From NCBI GenBank assembly GCA_021820465.1, contig JAKADP010000009.1, forward strand, positions 1 to 51,838: DNA of 51,838 nt, given 5' to 3'. Position 1 is the stretch's first letter; each line of letters opens with the position of its first letter. The notes beneath the pieces were generated by a model. That model saw nothing but the letters and a program-made list of their open reading frames with translations. It did not search any database and was not told where the DNA came from. Of this stretch, positions 346 through 24,932 are shown piece by piece. Both the position numbers and the translations under genes were made by a program. Source of the stretch: Bacillota bacterium. Its GTDB lineage: Bacteria > Bacillota > Sulfobacillia > Sulfobacillales > JAIMBI01.

Positions 346-3324
346 TTACGTGTCGCTGCCTGAGATGGGTTCGTCGGTCGTGGCGCCGGATGTCGTGCCG
401 ACCAGCCACACCGGCGCGCTCGAGGCGCTGACGGGAATGTCCACCGTCACGCTGCCCGACGACGTAGGCCCGGCCGCCGTCGTCCGCCACACGAACCCGC
501 TGGGTGGCGTAGGCAGCGTGACCGCCAGCGCATGGCCCGTGCTGTTGGGAATGGGATCGCCACCCGCATCCACGTTCACCACCTGCAGCTCCTGAGCCTG
601 ATTGGTGTTGAGGGTCAGCGGGTTTGCATCCGAGATGGGCGAGCCGTTGAGCTCCACCGCAGGACCCGATGTGGCCGGTCCCGGAACGACCGTCACGGTG
701 AAGGACACGGGCGGTACGGTCGGGTTGGACACATCCTGGATGGTGATGGTGGCCGTCCCGGCGTGGCCCAAGACCAGAGGCTTCATGTAAAGGGTCGTGG
801 CGTTGTCACCCGTGTACCACTCATCAGACGTGAACCACTGGTTGGATACCCCAAACGATCGGACATCGAAGCCGTTCGGATGAAAGGATGCCACGCCGCT
901 GTTGCTTGATGTCACGACGAGGCCATCCCCGCCATTGTTCCAGTAGTGATTGAACACCACCGGGGCGCCCAGGGCGTTGAACGCCTGCAAGTCGAGCCCA
1001 TACACCTTCGATCCCGCGCTGAGATTCCCGGTGCCGGGCCAGTTGCTGTGGCTGATGGAAGAGTGGTCTTCGCTGAAGTTGACGTGAAGGCTCGTGGCGT
1101 ACGAGCTCGCGGGCACCACCGTGTACTTGTCGGTCTTCCAGGCACGCCGCACCTGCCGCGCGCTTGACATCGTATAGAACGAATGGCCCAAGTCCGCTTG
1201 ACCGTACACCCGGAACGCGAAGTGGTCGTGGCGGTTGGCCGCCGCACCCGACGGCGTGCTCACCTCAATCGTGGCCACACCCTGGCCATTGGTGAACGCC
1301 TCATACAGGTCACCCGAGTGAGAGGCCCCGTTCGGCAGGATGGCGGTGCCGGTCGTGGGCTGCAGGAGGTCAAACCAGATGGGCTGCCCCGCCTGGGCCA
1401 CCGGCGTGCCAAACTGATTGGTCAGCTGTGCCGACACGGTAGTGCTGTGCCCCGCCAGAACGCTGAACCCGCTAGGTTGGTCACCGTTCCGGGTCTCGTG
1501 GAACATCGTCTTCATCCACGCCGGCGCCAGCACGGCGTAGCCGTTGACCGGCGCCGCGAAATCGTAGGGCGCGGTCGCGGTGTATCCGGTCGTCGTGTCC
1601 GTCACCGTGATGGTGGGGTTGGTGGCCGTGTGGGTGTAGTCCGTCGACACGTACACTGTGGCCAATCCCGAGGTGGTGAGGATGCTGTCCGAGGAGATGT
1701 TGGAGCTGGTGTACCGAGTCCCCAAGCTCAGCCCGTGCGTGGTTTCGACGGGGTCGGGGTAGTAGTACAGCTGGGCATGCTGGGTGTTGTCCTGAAGCAT
1801 GAATGTGGCGGCAGCCCCGGCTCCCGTGGTCACCAGGTTTCCGTTTTGATCCACCACTTCGATCTGATACTCCGTGTACGCACTGCCGTTGACGAACACC
1901 TGGCTGGTGGAAATGGCCAGATGGTTGGCTGCCCGCACTTCGTCCAGCGCAATGGTAGCGCTGGCGCCCGCCAGTCCCGACGAGGCGGCGCTCACCGTGA
2001 TGCTGCCGGACCCGGCCTGCACGTCATACACTTGGGCCGACGCCTGCGAGGTGCCGCGGGGAATGTACACGGATTCGGTGGTTTGTGTGCCGCTGGGGCT
2101 GAAGCTCCCGGGTCCTGCCAGAGTGAGGGTGACGTAGCGGCCCACCGACGTGGAGTCGGCATTGGCGGCCTGGTCATTGAGCCCCACCCAGACCGTGTCG
2201 CTGTTGGCGAAGTTGTTGGCCAGGCTGGGCAGCATGGGGGTCACGGTGAGCGAGGCGGCTTGCGGCACCAAGGCCGACACCACCGCGCTGGCGTAGCTGA
2301 CGTTGGCGGCTTGGCTTTGGCCCGCCGCACCGCCCGCGGACGTGGCCGCTGACTGCAGATGGTCCGCCGAGACGGTGTAGGTGGCGCCGCCGCCCCCCGG
2401 CGGCACGTCCAGCTGAATCGTGCCCACCCCGCTCGTGATCGAGACCGTCGCGGGGCCCTCTTGCCCCCCGAAGTTCACCAGGGAGCTGGATCCCGTCACC
2501 ACGACCGAGCCGTTGAAGTTGGCCACCGTGTTGTGGTTCGAGTCCTGCACCGTGACGGTGACGGTGTCGGTGGCTACGCCATCCGCCACCACCGTGGGGC
2601 TGGCCAGGGACACGGCCACGGCGGACGCCATACCGTACTCGGTTGTGGTGCCAACGAGGCTCATCAGCGCACCGTGCGGATTGTTGGCCGCCAGCGGACT
2701 TTTGGCGTAGGCCACGTAGGTCACGGCGCCACTCCCGGGCGGCGTAAACGAAAAGGTGCTGCTCGACTGGTAGGCCCCGCTCTGGTGCCACTGGCCGTTT
2801 TGCTCCCACCAAAACTGGTACACGGGGTCAAAGATGTGCTGAGCGGTGGCCGTCAGCACAATCGAGGTGCCGGCGGGCGCGTCGGTCGTGGACGCGGACA
2901 CCGTGACGGCACTTTGGACAAACACCCCGTCAGGCAGGGTCGTCTGGGCCGCGGCCCAGTCTCCGGCCGCCACCTGGCTCTTGTCCAAGACGTCGACCGC
3001 CACGAGGTAGTTGCCGGCCGACGGCGTCGAGAGCGTGAAGCTGGAGCTCTGCGAGTAGTTTTGGGCGTCCACCCACTGCCCGTTGGGCTCCTGCACCCAG
3101 AACTGATACAAGGCGGTGCCGTTCGGGTCCTGGGCACTAGCTTGGAACGTCACGCTCCCTTCGACCGAGGAGCGCGTAGGGCCGGACAGCGACACAGAGC
3201 CCGGCGTGACCGTCGGCCCGCTCTGGGCCACCGCCAGCGCCGGGGGAAGCAGGGAGAGCCAGAGGAGCGATGAGGCCAATGTCAACCCGTAGCGGGCCTT
3301 GCGGGATCCTGCGGAGGTCACCAC
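346..3324 (-). CDS. Large secreted protein with Y_Y_Y-type and Ig-like (Big-1-like) domains
   Basis: The product is about 992 residues. The GTG at 3324 was chosen because AGAAAGG lies 6 nt upstream; an ATG at 3384 would place 20 extra residues before the signal peptide. The N-terminus is a clear signal peptide: basic (SRKARYG), hydrophobic core (LASSLLWLSLL), likely cleavage after AVA. Two repeats follow, each with YQFW...NGQW and a Y...SSSF...P..G.Y pattern, resembling the Y_Y_Y (three-tyrosine) beta-sandwich. Next come Big-1/invasin-like segments (VVADGVATDTVTVTVQDSN) and several Thr/Ser/Val-rich beta-sandwich regions. There is no LPXTG motif or C-terminal membrane helix, so it is probably released or non-covalently surface-bound. 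An adhesin or S-layer-associated role is inference. It is monocistronic with its own terminator. Confidence 0.75.
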   Translation of the reverse strand: MVTSAGSRKARYGLTLASSLLWLSLLPPALAVAQSGPTVTPGSVSLSGPTRSSVEGSVTFQASAQDPNGTALYQFWVQEPNGQWVDAQNYSQSSSFTLSTPSAGNYLVAVDVLDKSQVAAGDWAAAQTTLPDGVFVQSAVTVSASTTDAPAGTSIVLTATAQHIFDPVYQFWWEQNGQWHQSGAYQSSSTFSFTPPGSGAVTYVAYAKSPLAANNPHGALMSLVGTTTEYGMASAVAVSLASPTVVADGVATDTVTVTVQDSNHNTVANFNGSVVVTGSSSLVNFGGQEGPATVSITSGVGTIQLDVPPGGGGATYTVSADHLQSAATSAGGAAGQSQAANVSYASAVVSALVPQAASLTVTPMLPSLANNFANSDTVWVGLNDQAANADSTSVGRYVTLTLAGPGSFSPSGTQTTESVYIPRGTSQASAQVYDVQAGSGSITVSAASSGLAGASATIALDEVRAANHLAISTSQVFVNGSAYTEYQIEVVDQNGNLVTTGAGAAATFMLQDNTQHAQLYYYPDPVETTHGLSLGTRYTSSNISSDSILTTSGLATVYVSTDYTHTATNPTITVTDTTTGYTATAPYDFAAPVNGYAVLAPAWMKTMFHETRNGDQPSGFSVLAGHSTTVSAQLTNQFGTPVAQAGQPIWFDLLQPTTGTAILPNGASHSGDLYEAFTNGQGVATIEVSTPSGAAANRHDHFAFRVYGQADLGHSFYTMSSARQVRRAWKTDKYTVVPASSYATSLHVNFSEDHSSISHSNWPGTGNLSAGSKVYGLDLQAFNALGAPVVFNHYWNNGGDGLVVTSSNSGVASFHPNGFDVRSFGVSNQWFTSDEWYTGDNATTLYMKPLVLGHAGTATITIQDVSNPTVPPVSFTVTVVPGPATSGPAVELNGSPISDANPLTLNTNQAQELQVVNVDAGGDPIPNSTGHALAVTLPTPPSGFVWRTTAAGPTSSGSVTVDIPVSASSAPVWLVGTTSGATTDEPISGSDT

Positions 3325-3602
3325 ACCACACCTTTCTGAGACAGCACTGCGCGCAGGGAAACCCCACCGAGGGAATAACGCCAAGGGGCGCTGGGGCTAG
3401 GTGGAACACCGCTATCTTACCACCAATAAAGGGTGTTGGCTCCTGTAAGGCTATAAAAGGTTAAACATTCGACGCGAGCGCGCGGCAACGCCGCCGCACC
3501 TCGCCCTTCGACGGGGTCCTTTGTCATGGGGGACGAGCGAACCCGGGCGTGAATGCGGCCGGGGGGCGGCCGTCACCCGGTTGACGGGCTCCCGATGTAA
3601 CC

Positions 3603-4676
3603 CTAGTGGAGCGGCCCCAGGCGAGGCAACAAGGTGAGTGCGGTCTCGTGGTACAGGGCGGCCAGTGCCTCTGAGGAGAGGTCGAGGCCATAAATCTTCC
3701 AGCGGCCCTGCAAGCCTGGGTGGCGCGCTTGGCCAGGGCTGTAGTCAAAGTACTCGTCGCGGGTTTCCAGCATGCGGTACACCGTGCGGTAGTCCTCACG
3801 GGTGGCCGGCCAGTCATCCAAGCCGAAAGCCACCCGGCCCCGGTGCGCCTCCAGAAAGTCGTGCGCCGTGTACGGCTGGCGGCCCAACTCCGCCGTGCGG
3901 GCAGCAATGTCCACGGTCAGATTGGGGTGGCGAGCCAGCAGGGCGGATGCCAGGGCGAGATCCTCCGCGCACGAGGCGACGTGCGCCCCGATAAAGCGCG
4001 TCTGGGGATGGCGGGCCATGACCGCTTCCCAGTCCCCAATCAGGTCAGCATGGCGGGGCACGCCGGGGCCATAGAAGTGCCAGTCCGGGTGGCGGACCAG
4101 CTCCTCGTACCGCTCGTTGGTGGCATCCAGCGGCTCGAAGAACGCCATCGGGTCTGCGACGTGAATCATGATGGGGACGCCGCGCTCGCCGCACGTGGCC
4201 CACAGGCCATCCAGCCGGGGATCGGAGAGGGCTAGCCGCTGGCCGTCCGGCGTCCGGCGGGTGAGCCCGACGTCCTTCCACACCTTGAGCCCCTCGGCGC
4301 CGTCGTCTAGCGCCTGGCGCAGTTCGCGGGTCAAGCGCTCGCCGAAGGCCTCATCGCGGAGCGCATGGTCCCAGTCCACGGTGGCAAACACCGCAAACCG
4401 GCTCGGGTATGGCCCGCGGAATCGCTCGAGGTGGGCCGCCAGCCGCGCGCCACTCCCGCCATCCAGGTCCACCATGGCGGCGACGCCCGCCGCGTCCATC
4501 TCGTCCACCAGCGCCGGGACGTCCGTGACTTGCCACTGCCCGCCCCACTGAGAGTGGTTGTGCAGGTCGATGACTGGATGCCGCGGATGCGCGACCGGGT
4601 GCGTGGGCACCCGCAGCATCGAACGGGGGCGAAAGTCCGACAGGGGCAACTCGGCGGGGGTGGGGGCATTTGGCAT
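3603..4676 (-). CDS. Amidohydrolase-2 family metal-dependent TIM-barrel hydrolase
   Basis: The product is 357 residues. The ATG at 4676 follows AGGAGGG with 5-nt spacing. Family signatures run in order: an N-terminal metal motif VIDLHNHSQWGG (HxH type), GLKVWKDVGL, IMIHVADPMAFFEP, FIGAHVAS and the late aspartate in FGLDDWP, ending with a KIYGLDLSSEALAALYHETA helix typical of this amidohydrolase subgroup. Such enzymes hydrolyse or decarboxylate small aromatic or lactone-like substrates; the substrate here cannot be told from sequence. The gene follows the Rieske gene by 57 bp on the same strand and may be the last gene of the suf transcript. No strong terminator separates the two. Confidence 0.8.
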   Translation of the reverse strand: MPNAPTPAELPLSDFRPRSMLRVPTHPVAHPRHPVIDLHNHSQWGGQWQVTDVPALVDEMDAAGVAAMVDLDGGSGARLAAHLERFRGPYPSRFAVFATVDWDHALRDEAFGERLTRELRQALDDGAEGLKVWKDVGLTRRTPDGQRLALSDPRLDGLWATCGERGVPIMIHVADPMAFFEPLDATNERYEELVRHPDWHFYGPGVPRHADLIGDWEAVMARHPQTRFIGAHVASCAEDLALASALLARHPNLTVDIAARTAELGRQPYTAHDFLEAHRGRVAFGLDDWPATREDYRTVYRMLETRDEYFDYSPGQARHPGLQGRWKIYGLDLSSEALAALYHETALTLLPRLGPLH

Positions 4677-15381: not shown

Positions 15382-15408
15382 GTTGAACCACAGTTCTCAT
15401 ATGAGAAT
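15382..15408 (+). promoter_or_regulatory. Candidate operator, copy 1, upstream of the rhamnose-type cluster
   Basis: The segment reads GTTGAAC, 3 nt, AGTTC, 4 nt, ATGAGAAT. It contains a perfect 14-bp palindrome, TTCTCATATGAGAA (15394-15407), plus GAAC-N4-GTTC overlapping it. It ends 12 bp before the GTG start at 15421. A second copy at 19649-19675, ahead of the transporter gene, agrees at the same spacing. The IclR-type regulator encoded at 21211 is the obvious candidate ligand. Confidence 0.7.
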
Positions 15409-15420
15409 CGGAGGTGGGCT

Positions 15421-16230
15421 GTGCCGTACTCGCTTCGCATCGTTCAGGTCGCCGACCTGGGAGAAGTGCCCGGCCCGGAGGTATTTTGGATGAGCCACTT
15501 CGGCCAGTGGCTGCCCCTTCGGGTGTACGTAGGCATCATCCGCGGCGAGGGCCGGACGGTTTTGGTTAACTCGGGCCCCCCCCAAGACTATCTGGACGTC
15601 ATGAACGACGTGTGGCGTGAGGAGCTGGGGCCACGCGCGCACATGACCGTGGACGGGGCGGACGCGGTGGCAGCGTGGCTGGACCGCGCTGGGGTGGCGC
15701 CCCAGGAGGTGGACGCCGTGATTGTCACCCCGCTCCAAGCGTATGCCATTGGGAACATCGACCGGTTCCCCAATGCCGAGGTGTGCGTCAGCCGCCGAGG
15801 ATGGGAAGATCTGGTCGCGCCGGCGCGCTTTGATCCTCGCCGGCGCATGGCGGTCCCGGATCGGCTGCTGCGCTACCTGTTGGAAGACCGCTGGGCGCGC
15901 CGGCGGTTTCGGCTCTTGCGCGATGCGGCAGACGAAGTGGTGCCGGGGGTGCGCACCTGGTGGGCCGGCACCCACCACCGGAGCTCACTGGCGGTCGAGG
16001 TGGACACGCCCCAGGGAGTGGCGATCCTGTCCGACGTGGCGTTCTACTACGACAACCTGGAGCAAGACCACCCGCTGGGCATTCAGGAGAGCATGGCGGA
16101 GTGCCGCCGAGCGTATGACCGCATCCGGGCCCGCGGCGATCGCTTTGTGTCGCTGTACGACCCGCGCAATGGCGTGCGCTTTCCCGATGGCTGGGTGGCG
16201 CCGCCGCCAGGGATGGAGGTGGCCGAGTGA
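15421..16230 (+). CDS. MBL-fold (AHL-lactonase-like) protein with degenerate metal site
   Basis: The product is 269 residues from GTG at 15421, with GGAGG 6 nt upstream. The layout follows AttM/AHL-lactonase-like metallo-beta-lactamase proteins: TVLVNSGPP in place of LVDTG, and VIVTPLQAYAIGN (residues 101-112) where HxHxDH should be. GTHHRSS follows and keeps one histidine, then LSDVAFYYDNLEQDHPLG keeps the bridging aspartate, and LYDPRNG replaces the final GHDP. Most zinc ligands are therefore lost. It is the first gene of the cluster, overlapping the next by 4 bp. Its place suggests a lactone- or substrate-binding role, but classical zinc lactonase chemistry is doubtful. Confidence 0.75.
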   Translation: MPYSLRIVQVADLGEVPGPEVFWMSHFGQWLPLRVYVGIIRGEGRTVLVNSGPPQDYLDVMNDVWREELGPRAHMTVDGADAVAAWLDRAGVAPQEVDAVIVTPLQAYAIGNIDRFPNAEVCVSRRGWEDLVAPARFDPRRRMAVPDRLLRYLLEDRWARRRFRLLRDAADEVVPGVRTWWAGTHHRSSLAVEVDTPQGVAILSDVAFYYDNLEQDHPLGIQESMAECRRAYDRIRARGDRFVSLYDPRNGVRFPDGWVAPPPGMEVAE

Positions 16231-17006
16231 CAGAGGGGCGGCTGAAGGGCAAGGTGGCCGTGGTGACGGGGTCCGGCCGCGGCATTGGGCGCGCGGTGGC
16301 GGAGCGCCTCGCCCAAGACGGAGCGCTCGTCGTCGTCAACTTTCCGGGCGAACCGGGCGAGGCCGACCACGCCGCGTCGCTCGTCGAGGAGATTCGGCGG
16401 GCGGGGGGCGAGGCCTGGCCGGTGGAGGCGGACGTCTCACAGGCCGACCAGGTGGCACGCCTGTTTGACCGCGTCGCCGCCGACGCCGGCTATGTCGATA
16501 TTTTGGTGAACAACGCGGGCATCTGCCCCTTCCAGGATTGGTGGGGCATGACCGAGGCGCTTTGGGACCGGGTTGCCGCAGTGAATCTTAAAGGAACGTT
16601 TCTGTGCAGCCATCGAGCGTCTCGGATGATGCGGGACCGCGGGGCCGGTGGCCGGATCATCAGCCTGTCCTCCATCTCCGCCCTGGTGGGCGGTGCCCTG
16701 CAGACGCACTACACGCCGACGAAGGCCGGGGTCCGGTCGCTGATGCAGTCGCTGGCCATCGTGCTGGGGCCGTACGGCATCACCTGCAACAGCGTGATGC
16801 CTGGGTCAATCCTGACGGACATCAACCGGGCCCACTATGAGGAGCCCGGCTTGAGGGCGCGGGATGAGGCGCGGATCCCGGTGGGCCGGCTGGGGCAGCC
16901 GCGCGACGTGGCCGGGGCCGTGGCTTTTCTGGCCAGCGATGAAGCGGCCTACATCACGGGAGCAGACATTCTGGTGGACGGCGGCCTGTTTGTGAATCTG
17001 CAGTAA
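16227..17006 (+). CDS. SDR oxidoreductase, probable L-rhamnose 1-dehydrogenase
   Basis: The product is 259 residues, GTG start overlapping the previous stop (GTGA). Classical SDR features: cofactor motif TGSGRGIG (residues 14-21), NNAG at 95-98, Asn120, Ser149, Tyr162 and Lys166 (YxxxK), and the terminal GADILVDGGL. The region after beta-2 (VNFPGEPGEAD) lacks the acidic residue of strictly NAD-specific members, so NADP use is possible. With rhamnose mutarotase and L-rhamnonate dehydratase in the same run of genes, oxidation of L-rhamnose to L-rhamnono-lactone is the most likely reaction. SDR substrate calls from sequence alone are weak, so this rests mainly on context. Confidence 0.8.
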   Translation: MTEGRLKGKVAVVTGSGRGIGRAVAERLAQDGALVVVNFPGEPGEADHAASLVEEIRRAGGEAWPVEADVSQADQVARLFDRVAADAGYVDILVNNAGICPFQDWWGMTEALWDRVAAVNLKGTFLCSHRASRMMRDRGAGGRIISLSSISALVGGALQTHYTPTKAGVRSLMQSLAIVLGPYGITCNSVMPGSILTDINRAHYEEPGLRARDEARIPVGRLGQPRDVAGAVAFLASDEAAYITGADILVDGGLFVNLQ

Positions 17007-17051
17007 TTCGGGCGGCGAGGTGCCGCAGCCAGGTCTGAGGAGGGATGGCGG

Positions 17052-17369
17052 GTGCAGCCAGCAGTTTTTCGGATGCGCATACGGCCGGGGATGGAAGAGG
17101 TGTACCGCGCCCGCCATCAGGCCGTCTGGCCGGAAGTGGAAGCCGCCCTCCGGCGCGCGGGCTTCTCGCGCTACAGCATTTTCGCGGCAGGAACGGAACT
17201 GGTGGCGTACTTTGAGGCGGTGGATCCGGCGTCCACTCTGGAGCGCTTGGCGGAAGATCCGGCGATGCAGCGGTGGTGGGCGTGGATGGCGCCGGTTATG
17301 GCGGACGAGCCCCCCGATGCCCATGACTACGTCCGGGTGTACCAGCTGGATGGACCAGGAGAGGAGTGA
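17052..17369 (+). CDS. rhaM: L-rhamnose mutarotase
   Basis: The product is 105 residues, GTG at 17052 with GAGGAGGG upstream. The RhaM/RhaU fold is recognised from FRMRIRPGMEEVYRARHQAVWPEVEAAL (His22 is the likely catalytic residue), YSIFAAGTELVAYFE and MQRWWAWMAPVM. The enzyme interconverts alpha and beta anomers of L-rhamnose, which helps a dehydrogenase that prefers one anomer. It lies between the SDR and MDR dehydrogenase genes and supports the rhamnose assignment of the cluster. Confidence 0.92.
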   Translation: MQPAVFRMRIRPGMEEVYRARHQAVWPEVEAALRRAGFSRYSIFAAGTELVAYFEAVDPASTLERLAEDPAMQRWWAWMAPVMADEPPDAHDYVRVYQLDGPGEE

Positions 17370-17373
17370 CGGG

Positions 17374-18405
17374 ATGCAGGCATTGGTCTGGGAAGGGCCC
17401 GAGCGCATGACCTACCGGAGCGCCGACGCTCCGGCGGCGTCGGCGGGCCACGTGGTCGTGCGCGTGGCTGGGGTGGGCGTGTGCGGGTCTGAACTGGGCG
17501 CCTACATGGGGCACAACGAACTTCGCCACCCCCCGCTAGTTATGGGCCACGAGTTTTCGGGCGTCGTGGTGGAGGTGGGGGACGGGGTCGACCCCGTCTG
17601 GAAGGGTGCCAGCGTGGTGGTGAACCCTCTGGTCACGTGTGGAACTTGCCGCTGGTGCCGAGGAGGCCAGCGGCAGCTGTGCCGCACCCGCCGGATTCTC
17701 GGGATTGACTTCCCGGGTGCCTTTGCGGAGCGCGTGGCTGTACCCGTCGGGGCGCTGCGCGCGGTGCACTGCGAGCTCGACAATCTCTGGACCGGGGCCC
17801 TGGTGGAGCCGCTGGCCTGCGCCGTCCGCGCCACGGGCCAGGCGGCGATTGAGGTGGGCGACGCGGTGCTCATTTACGGCGCCGGCATCATTGGGCTCAT
17901 GGCGGCGTGGATGGCGCGGCGGCGTGGCGCCGGGGCGGTGTGGCTGGTGGACGCCAATCCGGTACGCCTCCGCCACGGGGCGGTGTGGGGCGCGGACCGG
18001 GCGCTCAACGCCGTGGCTGACGACGTGGCCGCCTTGGTGCGGCGCGCGTGGCCCGACGGAGTCGACCGCGTGATTGACGCGGTAGGGATCTCGGCCACCC
18101 GCCGCGAGGGCCTAGAGCTGCTGACGCGCGGCGGGCGCATGGTGTTAGTGGGGCTTCACGAGCCAGCCACGGCGCTCGACGGCAATCGGTGGGTGCGGGA
18201 CGAGGCCGAGGTGGTCGGGTCATTCTGCTATCGGGACCAAGACTTTTCGGCCGCCGCCACCTTATGGGAGGCGGGTGCGCTGCCCACAGCGGGCGAATGG
18301 CTGGACCGCCGCTCACTGTCGGCGGGGGATGCTGCCTTTCAGGAACAGGCTCGGGGCCCGGCCCCGTTTGCCAAAATCGTGCTGGACGCGGAGGAACGCC
18401 CATGA
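17374..18405 (+). CDS. Zinc-dependent MDR dehydrogenase, candidate L-2-keto-3-deoxyrhamnonate 4-dehydrogenase
   Basis: The product is 343 residues, ATG 4 bp after the rhaM stop. It is a sorbitol/threonine-dehydrogenase-like MDR enzyme: catalytic zinc ligands Cys37 (GVCGSE), His59-Glu60 (GHEFSG) and Glu145 (LVEPLACA), structural zinc cysteines 89, 92, 95 and 103, and the Rossmann motif GAGIIG at 169-174. The known Sphingomonas 4-dehydrogenase (LRA5) is an SDR, so this would be a non-homologous replacement. Alternatives are an L-lactaldehyde or another polyol dehydrogenase. It overlaps the dehydratase gene by 4 bp (ATGA). Confidence 0.75.
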   Translation: MQALVWEGPERMTYRSADAPAASAGHVVVRVAGVGVCGSELGAYMGHNELRHPPLVMGHEFSGVVVEVGDGVDPVWKGASVVVNPLVTCGTCRWCRGGQRQLCRTRRILGIDFPGAFAERVAVPVGALRAVHCELDNLWTGALVEPLACAVRATGQAAIEVGDAVLIYGAGIIGLMAAWMARRRGAGAVWLVDANPVRLRHGAVWGADRALNAVADDVAALVRRAWPDGVDRVIDAVGISATRREGLELLTRGGRMVLVGLHEPATALDGNRWVRDEAEVVGSFCYRDQDFSAAATLWEAGALPTAGEWLDRRSLSAGDAAFQEQARGPAPFAKIVLDAEERP

Positions 18406-19574
18406 GCGGGGAGCGGATTCGGGCTGTGCGTGCGCTGACCGTGCGCGGAGGGGGCGCCGACTACCACGACCAGGCGGCGGACCATTGGATCGTGGGGCAG
18501 ATTGCCACCCCCATGTCTCGATACCCCGAATATCGCACGACGCGGTCGTCGTGGGGGATTGATGCGCTGGGCTCGGTGGTGGTGGAGGTGGAAGATGAGG
18601 CGGGCCGGGTGGGTGTCGGGGTTAGCACGGGCGGGGTGCCCGCGGCGTGGCTGGTGGCCCACCACTTGGACCGCTTTGTAGTGGGGCGGCAGCCAAGCCA
18701 GGTCGAGCTGATTTGGGACCAGATGTACCGGGCGTCACTGTACTACGGCCGCAAGGGCGTCGCCTTAAACGCCATCTCGGCCGTGGACTTAGCCCTGTGG
18801 GACCTTTGGGGGCGCCAGCGGCAGGAGCCCGTGTTTCACCTGCTGGGGGGGCCGGTTCGCCAAAAGCTTCCGTGCTACGCCACCGGGCCCCGTCCCGATT
18901 GGGCGGTGGCGGCCGGGTTTATCGGCGGAAAGCTGCCGCTGGTACACGGCCCCGACGAGGGCGCGGCCGGGCTGCGCCGGAATGTGGACCGAGTGGCGCA
19001 CGCGCGCGAGCAGGTGGGTCCCGATGCGCTTCTGATGGTGGACTGCTGGATGGCGCTGGATCTGAACTACGCGGAGCGGCTGCTGGCGGAGTTGGCGCCG
19101 CTGGGGGTGTACTGGGTCGAAGAGTGCTTTCCGGCCGATGATTATTGGTCGTATCGCGAGCTGCGCCGACGCCGGCCGCCGGGCATGCGAATCGCCACGG
19201 GGGAGCACGAGGCCACGCGGTGGGGCTTTCGGCTGCTGCTGGAGATGGAGGCCGCCGACGTCGTCCAGCCCGACGTGACGTGGTGTGGCGGGTTGACGGA
19301 GCTGATGCGGATTGCCGCGCTGGCGGACAGCTGGCAGGTGCCCGTGATTCCCCACGGGTCGAGCGTCTACAGCTACCACTTCGCCGCCGCCCGCGCGGCC
19401 ACCCCGTTTTCCGAGTTCCTCATGATGCATCCGACCGCGACGGGCCTCACCCCCATGTTTGACCCGCTGCTGCTGGGCGAGCCGCTGCCCGTGGGCGGGG
19501 TGATCACCGTGCCCGATACGCCGGGGTTTGGGGTGGAGCTCAATCGGTCCCTGGACTTGATCCCGGCTCCGTAA
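18402..19574 (+). CDS. rhmD: L-rhamnonate dehydratase (enolase superfamily)
   Basis: The product is 390 residues (E. coli RhmD is about 400). The resemblance to RhmD is strong end to end: GGADYHDQAADHWIVGQIATPMSRY, the LYYGRKG loop, YATGPRPD, GFIGGKLPL, LMVDCWMALDLNYAERL, WVEECFPADDYWSYREL, ATGEHE, QPDVTWCGGLTEL and IPHGSSVYSYH. Metal ligands are Asp214, the Glu240/241 position and Glu268; His318 is the catalytic histidine. The enzyme dehydrates L-rhamnonate to 2-keto-3-deoxy-L-rhamnonate. It is the most secure marker that this cluster handles L-rhamnose or a close 6-deoxy/lyxo-type sugar acid. Confidence 0.93.
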   Translation: MSGERIRAVRALTVRGGGADYHDQAADHWIVGQIATPMSRYPEYRTTRSSWGIDALGSVVVEVEDEAGRVGVGVSTGGVPAAWLVAHHLDRFVVGRQPSQVELIWDQMYRASLYYGRKGVALNAISAVDLALWDLWGRQRQEPVFHLLGGPVRQKLPCYATGPRPDWAVAAGFIGGKLPLVHGPDEGAAGLRRNVDRVAHAREQVGPDALLMVDCWMALDLNYAERLLAELAPLGVYWVEECFPADDYWSYRELRRRRPPGMRIATGEHEATRWGFRLLLEMEAADVVQPDVTWCGGLTELMRIAALADSWQVPVIPHGSSVYSYHFAAARAATPFSEFLMMHPTATGLTPMFDPLLLGEPLPVGGVITVPDTPGFGVELNRSLDLIPAP

Positions 19575-19648: not shown

Positions 19649-19675
19649 GTTGAACGGGAGTTCACGGATGAGAAT
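19649..19675 (+). promoter_or_regulatory. Candidate operator, copy 2, upstream of the MFS transporter gene
   Basis: GTTGAAC, 3 nt, AGTTC, 4 nt, ATGAGAAT occurs with exactly the spacing of copy 1 (15382-15408). It keeps GAAC-N4-GTTC and a degenerate TTC-N8-GAA dyad. It ends about 22 bp before the transporter start and overlaps the upstream in-frame ATG at 19668, which argues against that ATG as the start. Confidence 0.7.
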
Positions 19676-19697
19676 TGTTCGGAGGGGAGTGTTGCTT

Positions 19698-21059
19698 GTG
19701 AGCACCGCACCGGGATCCGGTGGGGGGGCGTTGGCGCAAGTGGACGAGGCCCGCCTGAGCGGGGCGCACTGGCGCTGGACCATTCTGTCCGCGCTGGGAG
19801 ATTATTTGGATGCCGGCTCTATCGTGGCCGGCGGCGCGTCGGTCTTGTTGTGGACGCAGCTGTACCACCTGGACTCGTCCACCGTGGGCCTCATTGCAGC
19901 GGTGGGGTCGAACGGCTTTTCCACAGCTGTGGGGGCTCTCATTGGGGGGCGGCTGGGCGACTTCTACGGTCGGAAATTTATTTATTCGATTGACTTGCTG
20001 ATTTATGCCCTGGGGGCGGTGGTTGTGATGCTGTCGGCCAGCCTCCCCCTGCTCATCGCGGGCTTAGTGGTCATGGGCCTCGCCGTCGGCGCGGACATAC
20101 CCACCTCCTGGTCCCTCATCGCCGAGTTTTCGCCGCGCCGCGAGCGGGGCAAAATGATGGGCTTCACCAACATCTTCTGGTACATCGGCCCCATCGTGAT
20201 TCTGCTGCTGTCGCTGGCGTTCAGCCACCTGGGCATCACCGGCGTGCGGCTGGTGTTTGGGAGCCTGCTGCTCGTGGCCGTGGTCACGTGGTTTCTGCGG
20301 CGGCGGCTGGCGGAGTCACCGCGTTGGGCGCTGGCCCGGGGCAAGACGGCTGAGGTGGAGAGTGCGGCTCAGCAGCTAGGCTTCCACGCTGAGGCGGCTG
20401 CCCCTGCCGCCGTGCCGGCGGTCGCGCCGTGGCGCGAGATGTTCCGGAATGGCGGCTGGCGGCGACTGGCGTTCATCACGCCCATCTACGTGCTGTGGGG
20501 CATCCCGGCCGGGACCTATGGGTTCTTTCTCCCGTACATCTTCAAGACCGAAGGCGCCACGACCGCCGCGGGGGGCGACTTGCTGGAGATTCTGTGGTTC
20601 GCCTCCGCTATCGTGGCCGTCCTCGTGATTTTCATGCCGTTCAACGATCGGGTGGACCGACGCATTCTGTATGCGATTAGTGCGGCGTTCTGTGCGGCGG
20701 CGTTCTACCTGCTGGTGGCGTTTCCGATCACGGACCCCACGGTGGCCATCTTAAACGTGCTGCTGTTTGGATTTGGCCAAGGCATTGGGCTGTGGCCGCT
20801 CCAGCGCGTGTGGTCGGTCGAGCTGTTTCCCACCAGCGTCCGCAACACCGCCCAGGGCTCGCTGTGGGCGGTCATGCGCATCATGATTGGCGGGTGGAGC
20901 CTCTTCCTGCCCGTGCTGGCAGGGGCCTCCGGGTTCAAGCTGGTGGCGGTGATCATGGGGCTGATGTTCACCTACAACCTGGTTGTCGGAGGATTGTTTG
21001 GACCGCGGACTGGCGGCCAGTCCTTGGAGGCGATTCAGTCCGGCAGCCTTGCGACCTAA
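19698..21059 (+). CDS. MFS transporter, sugar-porter type, probable rhamnose/6-deoxysugar uptake
   Basis: The product is about 453 residues from GTG at 19698 (GGAGGGGAG upstream; TTG at 19692 is the alternative). Twelve hydrophobic segments are apparent. The loop 2-3 motif is GGRLGDFYGRKFIY, and PTSWSLIAEFSPRRERGKMMG and the C-terminal ELFPTSVRNTAQGSLWAVMRI repeat are those of the sugar porter/SP-like MFS family. It has its own copy of the candidate operator and is followed by a strong GC hairpin. Substrate is inferred from neighbours. Confidence 0.85.
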   Translation: MSTAPGSGGGALAQVDEARLSGAHWRWTILSALGDYLDAGSIVAGGASVLLWTQLYHLDSSTVGLIAAVGSNGFSTAVGALIGGRLGDFYGRKFIYSIDLLIYALGAVVVMLSASLPLLIAGLVVMGLAVGADIPTSWSLIAEFSPRRERGKMMGFTNIFWYIGPIVILLLSLAFSHLGITGVRLVFGSLLLVAVVTWFLRRRLAESPRWALARGKTAEVESAAQQLGFHAEAAAPAAVPAVAPWREMFRNGGWRRLAFITPIYVLWGIPAGTYGFFLPYIFKTEGATTAAGGDLLEILWFASAIVAVLVIFMPFNDRVDRRILYAISAAFCAAAFYLLVAFPITDPTVAILNVLLFGFGQGIGLWPLQRVWSVELFPTSVRNTAQGSLWAVMRIMIGGWSLFLPVLAGASGFKLVAVIMGLMFTYNLVVGGLFGPRTGGQSLEAIQSGSLAT

Positions 21060-21210: not shown

Positions 21211-22026
21211 ATGGCGGAGCCGAGGGGCGCGGGTGCGGTGAAGTCGGCAGCTCGGGTGGTGGAAGTCCTGCAGGCGGTGGCGCTGCGGCCCCCAGGTCTG
21301 ACCTTCACGGAGCTGTTGGACGCGACGCACATTCCACGCAGCAGTCTCCACGGCTTGGTGCACACCCTGGCCGAGCGGGGGGTGATCCAGCTGGATGCCG
21401 CCAGCAAGCGCTATGCTCCGGGGCCGAAGCTGTGGGAGCTGGCCATGAGCTATGCGCAGCAGCTGCAACTCGTCCCCCTCGCGTGGCCCGCCCTCGAGGC
21501 TCTGCGCGACACCTTCGACGAAACGGTCCAGATGGGGGTCTTAAACGGCGCCGATGTGGTCTACGTGGCCAAAGCGTCGTCGAGCCACCCGATGCAGATG
21601 GTGTCCCACGTGGGTAGTCGCCTGCCGGCGTACGCCACCGGGCTCGGCAAAGCGCTGCTGGCGGGCTTGGCGCCCGCCGCTGTGGAGGCGCTCTTGCCCC
21701 CATCCTTGCCCCGGTTCACCCGAGACACCCTCACAGAGCGTGCGGCGCTGCAGGCGGAACTGGCGCGCGTGCGTGAGCGGGGCTATGCGCGGGATGCGGG
21801 CGAGTACTCGGCTGACGTGCGGTGTGTGGCGGCGCCGCTGGTGGACCACACGGGAGCCGTGGTGGCGGCCGTGTCGGTGACGATGGCCAGCGAGCGCTTT
21901 CAGCCCGAGCGAGAGGCCGCCATAGCGCCCGCGCTCGTGGCGGCGATGCAGCGGCTCAGCGCGCAGCTGGGCTGTCTGGATTGGCATCGCTGGCGGCAGA
22001 AAGGGGTGAAGCGTGGAGCAGGTTGA
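21211..22026 (+). CDS. IclR family transcriptional regulator
   Basis: The product is 271 residues, ATG at 21211 with GGAGG 5 nt upstream. It has an N-terminal winged helix (VKSAARVVEVLQAVALRPPGLTFTELLDATHIPRSSLHGLVHTLAERG) and a C-terminal effector domain with ADVVYVAKASSSHPMQMVSHVGSRLPAYATGLGKALLA and CVAAPLVDHTGAVVAAVSVTM, the IclR signature. It is positioned between the transporter gene and lutA, overlapping lutA by 14 bp, and likely regulates the flanking catabolic genes through the 15382/19649 motif. Its effector could be rhamnose, rhamnonate or KDR. Confidence 0.93.
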   Translation: MAEPRGAGAVKSAARVVEVLQAVALRPPGLTFTELLDATHIPRSSLHGLVHTLAERGVIQLDAASKRYAPGPKLWELAMSYAQQLQLVPLAWPALEALRDTFDETVQMGVLNGADVVYVAKASSSHPMQMVSHVGSRLPAYATGLGKALLAGLAPAAVEALLPPSLPRFTRDTLTERAALQAELARVRERGYARDAGEYSADVRCVAAPLVDHTGAVVAAVSVTMASERFQPEREAAIAPALVAAMQRLSAQLGCLDWHRWRQKGVKRGAG

Positions 22027-22843
22027 TTTGTTTGTCTCCTGTTTGGTTGATGCGTTTGAACCTGCAACTGGGCGGGCTGCCGTGGCCGTGATGGAGCGGC
22101 GCGGGGCCCGGGTGGCGTTTGCCGCCGGCCAGACGTGCTGCGGTCAGTTTGCGTACAACGCGGGCCATTGGCCTGAGGCGTGGGGCATGGCCAAGAACTT
22201 GCTGGAGGCGCTGGATACGCTGCCGCAGCCGGGGCCCGAGGCCGCGCGAACGACGGTGGGGTTGTCCGGGTCGTGCGTGGCGATGGTCCGGGAGGAATAC
22301 CCGAAGCTGTTGGACTGGGCAGCGGACCAGCCGGGCTGGGACACCAGCTGGCCGGTGCGCTACGCCCGCGTGGCGGGCCGACTCCTCGAATTCTCCCAGT
22401 GGCTCGGGCGAGCCGTCCCGGCGCCTCCGCCGCCCGAGGCGGCGAGCCCGACCCGCATCGCGCTTCATACCGGTTGCCACATGCGGCGGGTGCTGGAGGC
22501 GGGCGGGGAAGCGGCCCGGGTCATTGAGACCTTGGGGCTGACCGTGGCCATTCCGGAGGATGAGGATCAGTGCTGCGGGTTTGGCGGCACCTACGCCATG
22601 ACCGAGCCGAAAATCTCGACGGCGCTGGCGGATGCCAAGCTGGCAGCGCTGCAGGCCACCGGGGCGGAGGCCCTCGTCAGTTGCGATTGGGGTTGCCTGC
22701 TGCACCTTGGGGGGCGGCTGTCGCGCAGGGGGGCGGCGTGGCCGGTGCTGCATCTCGCCGAGCTGGTGGACTTGGGCGACCGCGGGGACTTGAGTCCCGC
22801 CCGCCTCGCCCAGGTGGGCCAGTTTGTCCGGGAGGACCCCTGA
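22013..22843 (+). CDS. lutA: LutA-type (Fe)-S oxidoreductase, L-lactate utilisation
   Basis: The product is 276 residues, GTG start with AAAGGGG upstream, overlapping the iclR end by 14 bp. It contains two CCG (cysteine-rich) domains: CLVDAFEP...GQTCCGQFAYN and GCHMRRVLEA...DEDQCCGFGG...SCDWGCLLHLGG. With LutB and LutC it forms the FAD-independent lactate dehydrogenase complex that oxidises L-lactate to pyruvate. It is slightly longer than the common 238-residue form because of an extended linker and C-terminus. Confidence 0.92.
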   Translation: MEQVDLFVSCLVDAFEPATGRAAVAVMERRGARVAFAAGQTCCGQFAYNAGHWPEAWGMAKNLLEALDTLPQPGPEAARTTVGLSGSCVAMVREEYPKLLDWAADQPGWDTSWPVRYARVAGRLLEFSQWLGRAVPAPPPPEAASPTRIALHTGCHMRRVLEAGGEAARVIETLGLTVAIPEDEDQCCGFGGTYAMTEPKISTALADAKLAALQATGAEALVSCDWGCLLHLGGRLSRRGAAWPVLHLAELVDLGDRGDLSPARLAQVGQFVREDP

Positions 22844-24312
22844 TGGCCGGCTCGCTGCCGCGCGACCCGGCGCCATGGGCGGTGCGCCGGGATCGGGCGC
22901 TGGCCAACCCTCGGCTCCGGGCCAACATCGGAAGGGTCGCACGCCGGCTGGCGGGTGCCCGCCAGCAGGCCTACGCCAGCTATCCGGCGGGTCGGGCACT
23001 GCGGGTGGCCGGACGGGATGCCAAGCGTCGTGCAGTGGCGCACTTGGAGCCTCTGTTGGATCAGCTGCGCGACCAACTCTCAGCCAACGGGGCTCGGGTG
23101 ATTTTTGCTGAGGGTCCCAAGGAGGTGGCCGACTACATTGTGAGCCTAGCCGCCCGGCGGGGAGCCCAGCGCGTCGTCAAGTCCAAAAGCATGCTGACGG
23201 AGGAACTGGACCTGAACCGGCGCTTGGCAGCGGCCGGCTTGACCGTCCGGGAGACGGATCTGGGGGAATACATCATCCAGTTGCTGGACGAGCGGCCGAG
23301 CCACATCTTGGCGCCCGCGGCCCACCGCAATCGCCAGGAAATTGCGGCCATCTTTCAAGACACGGCTGACCGGGCGGGGGTGCCCGGCCCCACCTCCGAC
23401 GAGGTGGGGCCACTCGCCGCGTTCGCGCGCGCCCGCCTGCGGGAAGAATTTCTGGCGGCGGACATCGGCATCACGGGAGCCAACTTCCTGGTGGCCGAGA
23501 CGGGGACCGTCGTGCTGGTCACCAACGAGGGCAACGCCGACATGGTGGCGTCCCTGCCCCCGGTGCACGTCGTCGTCGCCGGCATCGACAAGGTGCTGGA
23601 TACATGGGAGGACTTAGCGGCCGTAATCCAGCAGCCGGCCCTGTCGGGCGTGGGGCAGCGCCTGTCGGCCTACACCACCCTCATCTCGGGGCCGCGCGCG
23701 CCGGGGGCGGAAGAGGGGCCCGAGGAACTCCACGTGCTGCTGGTGGACAACGGCCGCCGGCCACTGCTCGGGGGCCCCTACGCGGACGTCCTGACCTGCA
23801 TTCGGTGCGGGGCCTGCTACAACGTGTGCCCGGTCTACCGACAGGTGGGGGGACACGCGTACGGCTCCACGTACGCTGGTCCGATTGGGGCGGTAGAAAC
23901 CCCCCTGCTGGCGGGATTGAATTTCCTGCCGGAGCTGCCCAAGTCGCTCTGCACGCTGTGCAACGCCTGCGTGGACGCTTGCCCGATGGATATAGCGCTG
24001 CCAGACCACTTCATCACGCTGCGCCGGCAGCAGGTGGATGAGCGCGGGGAGCCGAGCACCACGCGGCTTACGTATCGGACGTGGGGGCGTCTCTGGTCCT
24101 CTCCACGACAGTACCAGCGCTTTCTCGCGTGGGCGCGTCGGGGTCAGCGCTTCATGATGCGCCAGGGTCGGCTGGTGCGCGCACCGGGCTTCCTGGGCGG
24201 GTGGTTCGAGACGCGGGACATGCCCCCCATCGCGGCCGAAACCTTTCACGAGTGGTGGGCCCGCCGCGCGTCTTCGCCGGCCTTATCGCGCTCAGACGAG
24301 GCGCCGTCATGA
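22843..24312 (+). CDS. lutB: LutB-type iron-sulfur protein, L-lactate utilisation
   Basis: The product is 489 residues, ATG overlapping the lutA stop (TGATG) with GGAGG upstream. The N-terminal LUD domain includes VVKSKSMLTEELDLNRRL, the SHILAPAAHRNR segment and the ADIGITGANFLVAETGTVVLVTNEGN signature. Two 4Fe-4S motifs follow: CIRCGACYNVCP from Cys319 and CTLCNACVDACP from Cys370. The C-terminal FxxWARRGQRFM region is typical. It overlaps lutC by ATGA. Confidence 0.95.
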   Translation: MAGSLPRDPAPWAVRRDRALANPRLRANIGRVARRLAGARQQAYASYPAGRALRVAGRDAKRRAVAHLEPLLDQLRDQLSANGARVIFAEGPKEVADYIVSLAARRGAQRVVKSKSMLTEELDLNRRLAAAGLTVRETDLGEYIIQLLDERPSHILAPAAHRNRQEIAAIFQDTADRAGVPGPTSDEVGPLAAFARARLREEFLAADIGITGANFLVAETGTVVLVTNEGNADMVASLPPVHVVVAGIDKVLDTWEDLAAVIQQPALSGVGQRLSAYTTLISGPRAPGAEEGPEELHVLLVDNGRRPLLGGPYADVLTCIRCGACYNVCPVYRQVGGHAYGSTYAGPIGAVETPLLAGLNFLPELPKSLCTLCNACVDACPMDIALPDHFITLRRQQVDERGEPSTTRLTYRTWGRLWSSPRQYQRFLAWARRGQRFMMRQGRLVRAPGFLGGWFETRDMPPIAAETFHEWWARRASSPALSRSDEAPS

Positions 24313-24932
24313 GCGGACGCGGCACGAGCCCGCTTCTGGAGGCATTTCGCATGCGCTGGGAGGCGCTGGGCGGGCACTACTGGGAGAGCGAGCCCGGGGC
24401 CGGCTTGGCACAAGCGGTGGCCGCGGCCGCCGACCGCCTGGTCGAGCGGGCGCCCGAGCGCATGCCCTCGGTCCTGTGGTGGCCCGGGCCGGCGTGGGCG
24501 GCCCTCGCGTGGAAGGCGGCGCTGCCGGCGGGCCGATGGGCCGTCACGCCGGTCACCGGCGGCGGTCCCATGGAGCCGGGCGCCCTGCGGAGCGTGGCCG
24601 CGTCGGCCGCCCTTGGGGTCACCGGGGCTGCCTGGGCGGCGGCCGACACCGGGTCGGTGGCGCTTGCCAGCGAGCCGGGGCAGGGTCTCTGGCCCAGCCT
24701 CCTGCCTCCGAGCCACCTTATCCTGCTGCGGGCGGCTCAGGTGGTGCCCACCCTGGCCGATGGCCTCAGGGTGATGCGATCCGAGGGCGGGATGCCGCCC
24801 ATGGCCAAAATCATCTCCGGACCCAGTTCGACCGCTGACATTGAAGGTCAGCTGTGGGTAGGGGTGCATGGGCCCGGGCGTGTCGGCGTGGTGGTGGTCA
24901 CCGGCCCGATGCCCGACGACGGCGGCCGCTAG
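24309..24932 (+). CDS. lutC: LutC-type LUD-domain protein, L-lactate utilisation
   Basis: The product is 207 residues, ATG overlapping the lutB stop (ATGA). The LUD fold is recognised from the GVTGAAWAAADTGSVALAS segment, the HLILLRAAQVVPTL strand-helix and ISGPSSTADIEGQLWVGVHGP near the C-terminus. It completes lutABC, placed directly after the iclR gene. The gene converges with dppA, overlapping it by 4 bp. Confidence 0.92.
   Translation: MSGRGTSPLLEAFRMRWEALGGHYWESEPGAGLAQAVAAAADRLVERAPERMPSVLWWPGPAWAALAWKAALPAGRWAVTPVTGGGPMEPGALRSVAASAALGVTGAAWAAADTGSVALASEPGQGLWPSLLPPSHLILLRAAQVVPTLADGLRVMRSEGGMPPMAKIISGPSSTADIEGQLWVGVHGPGRVGVVVVTGPMPDDGGR

Follow-up and report, generated by a model that had tools for sequence, protein, structure and literature searches.

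MBL-fold proteins that lack the metal motif are usually regarded as dead enzymes. In the stretch of DNA analysed here (the window, 51,838 nucleotides of a contig of a Bacillota bacterium), the gene for such a protein stands among sugar genes, and the question is what its product does there. The initial annotation, made from the letters alone, described an AHL-lactonase-like protein with altered metal motifs, encoded at the head of a sugar-lactone operon, and offered three readings: a new type of lactonase, a regulator or a binding protein.

Fold and metal site of the MBL protein

The gene and the residues that bear on metal binding are as follows.

15421..16230, + strand: gene of the MBL-fold protein, 269 aa, GTG start; proposed L-rhamnono-lactonase
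15568..15570, + strand: N50, where the VDTG motif has aspartate; all family members have N and 7/7 ligand-intact relatives have D
15727..15747, + strand: T103-P-L-Q-A-Y-A109, in place of T-HLHxDH; H104, H106, D108 and H109 become P, Q, Y and A, invariant in 26/26
15973..15984, + strand: H185-H186-R187-S188; H185 is the retained H169 ligand, and H186, R187 and S188 are invariant and family-specific
16033..16035, + strand: D205, the retained bridging ligand (AiiA D191), by alignment
16156..16158, + strand: Y246, aligned with AiiA H235, the last histidine ligand

The open reading frame starts with GTG at 15421, with a GGAGGTG ribosome site at 15410, and ends with TGA at 16228-16230, the stop overlapping the GTG of the next gene (16227) by four bases. 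The protein scores 22.3 bits against Pfam Lactamase_B, just under the cut-off of 22.7. Against the NCBIfam models AiiA (31.3 bits, cut-off 375) and AttM (27.5 bits, cut-off 390) it reaches about a tenth of the cut-off and stays below equivalog level. The gene context points to rhamnose, not to quorum sensing.

Structure prediction bore out the AHL-lactonase-like fold of the initial annotation. An AlphaFold2 model built from a 33-row alignment has a mean pLDDT of 94 and a pTM of 0.92, and its top matches among PDB structures (Foldseek, VIA-align) are AHL lactonases and 4-pyridoxolactonase, with Z of 25-30 over 241-253 residues and a highest value of 29.6 over 253 residues. Among solved structures, the model comes closest to the AHL lactonase 8X78 of Pseudomonas poae, AiiA, AiiB, GcL and 4-pyridoxolactonase. 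The model has the alpha-beta-beta-alpha fold of the MBL superfamily, and the metal motif of that superfamily, HxHxDH with downstream H, D and H, is replaced by PLQAYA and a final Y.

We aligned 26 family members with seven ligand-intact relatives from the same order. At the positions of AiiA H104, H106, D108, H109 and H235, the residues are H, H, D, H and H in each of the seven intact relatives and P, Q, Y, A and Y in each of the 26 family members. Thus five of the seven ligands are gone from the ligand-less family, and H185 (AiiA H169) and D205 (AiiA D191) are kept in both groups. The motif changes first read by eye hold up against these AiiA-type relatives: TPLQAYAIGN stands for HxHxDH, and the alignment of residues 103-109 is unambiguous; VNSG stands for LVDTG, with N50 in place of the aspartate; LYDP stands for GHDP, with Y246 in place of the histidine; and GTHH and the LSD aspartate remain, as H185 and D205. 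Independently, a PDB sequence search placed TPLQAYAIGN opposite HxHxDH in both AiiA and lactonase 8X78. The ligand loss belongs to the whole family, beyond the single protein first noticed.

The family has 25 invariant polar or aromatic residues, many of them family-specific and within the old active-site motifs, and H185 and H186 are its only invariant histidines. The residues gained as invariant are Q106, Y108, H186, R187, S188, Y209, E20, D130, E223, C228 and Y246, several again within the old active-site motifs.

The L-rhamnose operon

As initially annotated, the gene comes first in its operon, and the flanking genes identify that operon specifically as one for L-rhamnose oxidation.

15385..15410, + strand: operator-like motif GAACnnnAGTTCnnnnnnnnGAA(YYG), directly in front of the MBL gene, by core pattern search
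16227..17006, + strand: SDR of the L-rhamnose 1-dehydrogenase type; NCBIfam Lra1 is the best of 230 matches, 328 bits (cut-off 400)
17052..17369, + strand: L-rhamnose mutarotase RhaM; Pfam rhaM, 86.5 bits
17374..18405, + strand: zinc-dependent MDR, candidate KDR dehydrogenase; MDR match, with a Sulfobacillus precedent cited in PMC5674754
18402..19574, + strand: L-rhamnonate dehydratase RhmD; NCBIfam NF011968, 604 bits (cut-off 393)
19652..19677, + strand: the operator-like motif again, in front of the transporter gene, by core pattern search
19698..21059, + strand: MFS sugar transporter, start uncertain; Pfam Sugar_tr / MFS_1
21211..22026, + strand: IclR-family regulator, candidate reader of the operator-like motif; Pfam IclR_C, 160 bits
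22013..24932, + strand: lactate oxidation genes LutA (22013-22843), LutB (22843-24312) and LutC (24309-24932); CCG, LUD_dom, LutB_C, TIGR00273 409 bits; LutC assigned by position and homologous loci

Across the 2.88 Mb genome, the GAACnnnAGTTCnnnnnnnnGAA core pattern matches at exactly two places, each within the rhamnose cluster, and the reversed control matches nowhere; none is expected in shuffles of the window, and the motif recurs upstream of most MBL orthologues. The IclR protein probably has its operator here, which would make the MBL gene the first one of the regulated operon. A DNA hairpin upstream of the MBL gene was not significant (z -0.7).

Sulfobacillus thermosulfidooxidans has a characterised KDR dehydrogenase that belongs to the MDR superfamily (Bae 2015, as cited in PMC5674754), and the MDR gene at 17374..18405 fits this enzyme. 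With the clusters of relatives counted in, the predicted pathway, which runs from L-rhamnose through the lactone, rhamnonate, KDR and a diketo acid to pyruvate and lactate, lacks only a lactonase, and among the pathway-linked genes the MBL gene alone has no assigned step. In relatives, the same rhamnose gene set recurs in varying order with the MBL gene inside it, often adjoining the KDR dehydrogenase gene. Three such clusters (L024, L026 and L029) hold genes for the SDR, RhmD, the KDR dehydrogenase and an FAH hydrolase, and in part for the mutarotase, a rhamnosidase (GH78 in one relative) and LutABC. The best NCBIfam match of the FAH hydrolase in relatives' clusters is 2,4-didehydro-3-deoxy-L-rhamnonate hydrolase. 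These three clusters hold no lactonase candidate besides the MBL gene, their other genes being assigned to other steps.

The gene for the FAH-type 2,4-diketo-3-deoxy-rhamnonate hydrolase is present in the operons of relatives and absent from that of the window (16227-19574 compared with the same three clusters). An unlinked FAH protein elsewhere in the genome (G000:C92, L064), whose best NCBIfam match is the same hydrolase model at 197 bits (cut-off 500), may replace it.

The MBL gene and the dehydratase gene occur together. Of the order's 42 genomes, 23 carry a strong MBL copy, every one of them together with a strong rhamnonate dehydratase, and 17 have neither gene (Fisher p 7e-10, without correction for kinship). 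RhmD is found without the MBL gene in two genomes, G006 and G041, both cut at contig ends: the G006 contig starts inside the SDR gene, which in the sister genome G005 directly follows the MBL gene, and the G041 contig ends inside the dehydratase gene. The association extends to paralogues. Clusters with ligand-less paralogues (L030, L031 and the second copy in L045) also hold a rhamnonate-dehydratase-like MR_MLE paralogue, and at L053 such a paralogue adjoins the MBL gene.

Known rhamnonolactonases belong to the amidohydrolase superfamily. The genome has no SMP-30 protein and no PF10282 lactonase, and it encodes four Amidohydro_2 proteins, all unnamed by NCBIfam and outside the rhamnose cluster, one of which could hydrolyse the lactone. 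Proteins of this family are present in 42/42 genomes of the order, with or without RhmD.

3603-4676, - strand: one of the four Amidohydro_2 proteins, no NCBIfam assignment; near apparent SUF iron-sulfur genes

On the same strand of the window, 346-3384 encodes a repetitive 1012-aa protein that looks like an exported surface protein with Ig-like repeats.

Selection, origin and distribution of the family

The replacements at the ligand site have the same letters in strong orthologues from nine genera, and dN/dS of the MBL gene within the genus is 0.12-0.16 (Nei-Gojobori). In the maximum-likelihood tree, the ligand loss falls on a single long branch with support 100/100 and a length of about 4, both the length and the root being uncertain. 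Invariant replacements, a single origin and low dN/dS argue that the ligands were not lost by decay and, at the level of sequence, that the site is a rebuilt one under selection. Chance, frameshift, decay, contamination or sequencing error in the reading frame was ruled out by the identical letters in nine genera together with these dN/dS values.

The hosts of the ligand-less family are acid-loving bacteria. The family was not found outside the order among 299 genomes sampled from the phylum (E 1e-20). A search of the class (154 genomes, 42 of them of the order) gave no strong match outside the order, the sole weak one being in G340 (2.7e-18). Plasmid records contained one match of 28.7%, and viral contigs no homologue.

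The three nearest ligand-intact relatives (L032, L033 and L034) are about 30% identical to the MBL protein. Their neighbours are an SDR and an MFS transporter (L032), an SDR (L033), and an MR_MLE dehydratase and an MFS transporter (L034). Because the nearest intact relatives lie near such genes, the ancestor of the ligand-less family was probably already a sugar lactonase. The MBL protein would then descend from a di-metal lactonase of the AHL-lactonase type. On the simplest history, metal-dependent sugar lactonases would have worked in such operons, and one branch of them became fixed in the rhamnose pathway and lost its metals; this branch may have kept its lactonase job after the loss.

Proposed role and alternatives

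We slightly favour the reading that the MBL protein is the L-rhamnono-lactonase of the non-phosphorylative L-rhamnose pathway in the Sulfobacillus-containing order, and that it works without the canonical di-zinc centre. A lactonase is favoured because this is the only unassigned step, the gene strictly co-occurs with the dehydratase, its paralogues lie near dehydratase paralogues and its intact cousins lie among sugar-acid genes. Of the three roles first offered, the evidence thus favours the new lactonase; a regulator or a binding protein is less favoured. We consider it slightly more likely than not that the family has a working non-canonical active site made of the His/Asp pair, two tyrosines, a glutamine and an arginine, either metal-free or with a single tyrosine-bound metal.

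In the mechanism that we propose, the SDR would oxidise L-rhamnose to the lactone, which would sit in the old metal pocket of the MBL protein. The retained H185/D205 pair could serve as the general base that activates water. The invariant Y108, Y246, Q106, H186 and R187, which took the place of ligands or lie beside them, would bind the hydroxyls of the sugar and polarise the carbonyl of the lactone. The resulting L-rhamnonate would pass to RhmD, the KDR dehydrogenase, the FAH-type hydrolase and LutABC.

The AHL lactonases AiiA, AiiB, GcL and 8X78 and 4-pyridoxolactonase have the same fold and the equivalents of H169 and D191, and lactone chemistry would be expected in both. However, they are only 13-19% identical to the ligand-less family, which differs by P, Q, Y, A and Y at H104, H106, D108, H109 and H235, by invariant H186, R187, S188, E20, D130, E223 and C228, and by its link to L-rhamnose catabolism. 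LRA2/LraB, the L-rhamnono-gamma-lactonase of fungi and bacteria, is an amidohydrolase and thus of a different superfamily, and no homologue of it is linked to the rhamnose cluster. The proposed reaction and place in the pathway are the same as those of LRA2/LraB (PMC5674754, PMC3870299). The AhlD-like proteins of Sulfobacillus (PMC9040811) belong to the same fold family and come from related hosts, but AhlD keeps HXHXDH-H-D, whereas the ligand-less family does not. In the literature searched, no paper described an MBL-type rhamnonolactonase, and none gave a proven case of an MBL-fold enzyme that catalyses without metal.

The main rival, which we judge unlikely, is a non-catalytic pseudoenzyme whose ligand is L-rhamnose, the lactone or rhamnonate and which acts as sensor, chaperone or scaffold for the pathway enzymes, the lactone being opened spontaneously or by an unlinked amidohydrolase. 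Sugar lactones can open spontaneously, so a lactonase is not strictly required, and both the four unlinked Amidohydro_2 proteins and the IclR regulator in the same cluster are compatible with such a role. However, IclR regulators sense their own ligand, which makes an extra sensor unneeded, and the Amidohydro_2 proteins occur in all 42 genomes whether RhmD is present or not. CPSF100 and INTS9 (PMC4819959) and the cyanobacterial Flv1/Flv2 (PMC4390876) are likewise MBL-fold proteins that have lost their metal ligands and are kept by selection. CPSF100 and INTS9, the clearest ligand-less cases, are partners without catalytic activity, and CPSF100 shows no bound metal (PMC4819959); whether Flv1/Flv2 are active has been questioned (PMC4390876). 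CPSF100 and INTS9 pair with an active paralogue, whereas the MBL protein is encoded by a sugar-operon gene and has no close paralogue in its genome to act as an active partner: at E 1e-3 the query matches itself alone, so that there is no second member of the family. A distant MBL partner is conceivable among the eight Lactamase_B matches elsewhere in the genome. Also at odds with a pseudoenzyme, the paralogues accompany dehydratase paralogues, as the enzyme of the preceding step would, and the pocket motifs do not drift but have been remade with reactive residues that are invariant.

Less probable still is an altered-metal enzyme, in which Y108, H185, D205 and Y246, with R187 nearby, would bind one metal such as Fe(III) and open the lactone. 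Tyr-rich Fe(III) sites exist, two canonical ligands are kept in 26/26 members with two ligand positions now invariant tyrosines, and the hosts are kin of iron-oxidising acidophiles (Sulfobacillus); but tyrosine is much longer than aspartate and Y108 need not point at the old site, and Tyr-His-Asp metal sites are uncommon in hydrolases. We give somewhat less weight again to an enzyme that isomerises the 1,5- to the 1,4-rhamnonolactone, or that acts on the lactone or rhamnonate in some way other than hydrolysis. The first product of sugar dehydrogenases is often the 1,5-lactone, and another, unrelated hydrolase superfamily includes a dedicated isomerase for galactaro delta-lactone, which is metal-independent. 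That enzyme, as cited in PMC12076931, is a member of the amidohydrolase superfamily of metallohydrolases acting on sugar lactones, of a different fold from the MBL protein and an isomerase. Isomerisation is also spontaneous, however, and a hydrolase would still be needed, with none linked. Fold and operon position taken alone would suit an ordinary zinc lactonase with ligands supplied by shifted residues, a very improbable reading that is largely refuted. The alignment shows no shifted residues taking over as ligands, and the five histidines of the canonical di-zinc site in MBL proteins of this type cannot be rebuilt from shifted residues when only H185 and H186 are invariant; nor did a proven zinc enzyme with the same motif emerge among homologues, the best PDB match, 8X78, having an intact HxHxDH. 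Least probable of all is that the MBL protein replaces the 2,4-diketo-3-deoxy-rhamnonate hydrolase. The window's cluster has no FAH gene and the MBL gene often stands next to that of the KDR dehydrogenase, but this substitution was rejected because the FAH hydrolase and the MBL protein share an operon in relatives; the unlinked FAH protein in the genome also speaks against it.

If the MBL protein is indeed a rhamnonolactonase, the missing step of the Sulfobacillus-type L-rhamnose pathway would be filled and the fold would be able to catalyse without a di-metal centre. Across the order, the ligand loss is fixed and goes back to one origin; invariant replacement residues accompany it, inside an obligate catabolic operon. 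The intact cousins (L032-L034) and the ligand-less family would then form a natural before/after pair for the study of metal abandonment, and the annotation of MBL-fold proteins without HxHxDH would change.

Some of the paralogue clusters have further features. Two tandem ligand-less MBL genes lie at L045 7223-8871 (G019), with about 62% and about 52% identity to the window protein. At L030 435-3739 and L045 8086-13521, the ligand-less paralogues adjoin a class-V aminotransferase-fold protein (SufS-like by score), and near them in both lie genes for an RhmD-like dehydratase and for a protein about 840-890 aa long, whose L045 copy matches no Pfam model at 1e-5. These two clusters possibly encode a second sugar-acid pathway.
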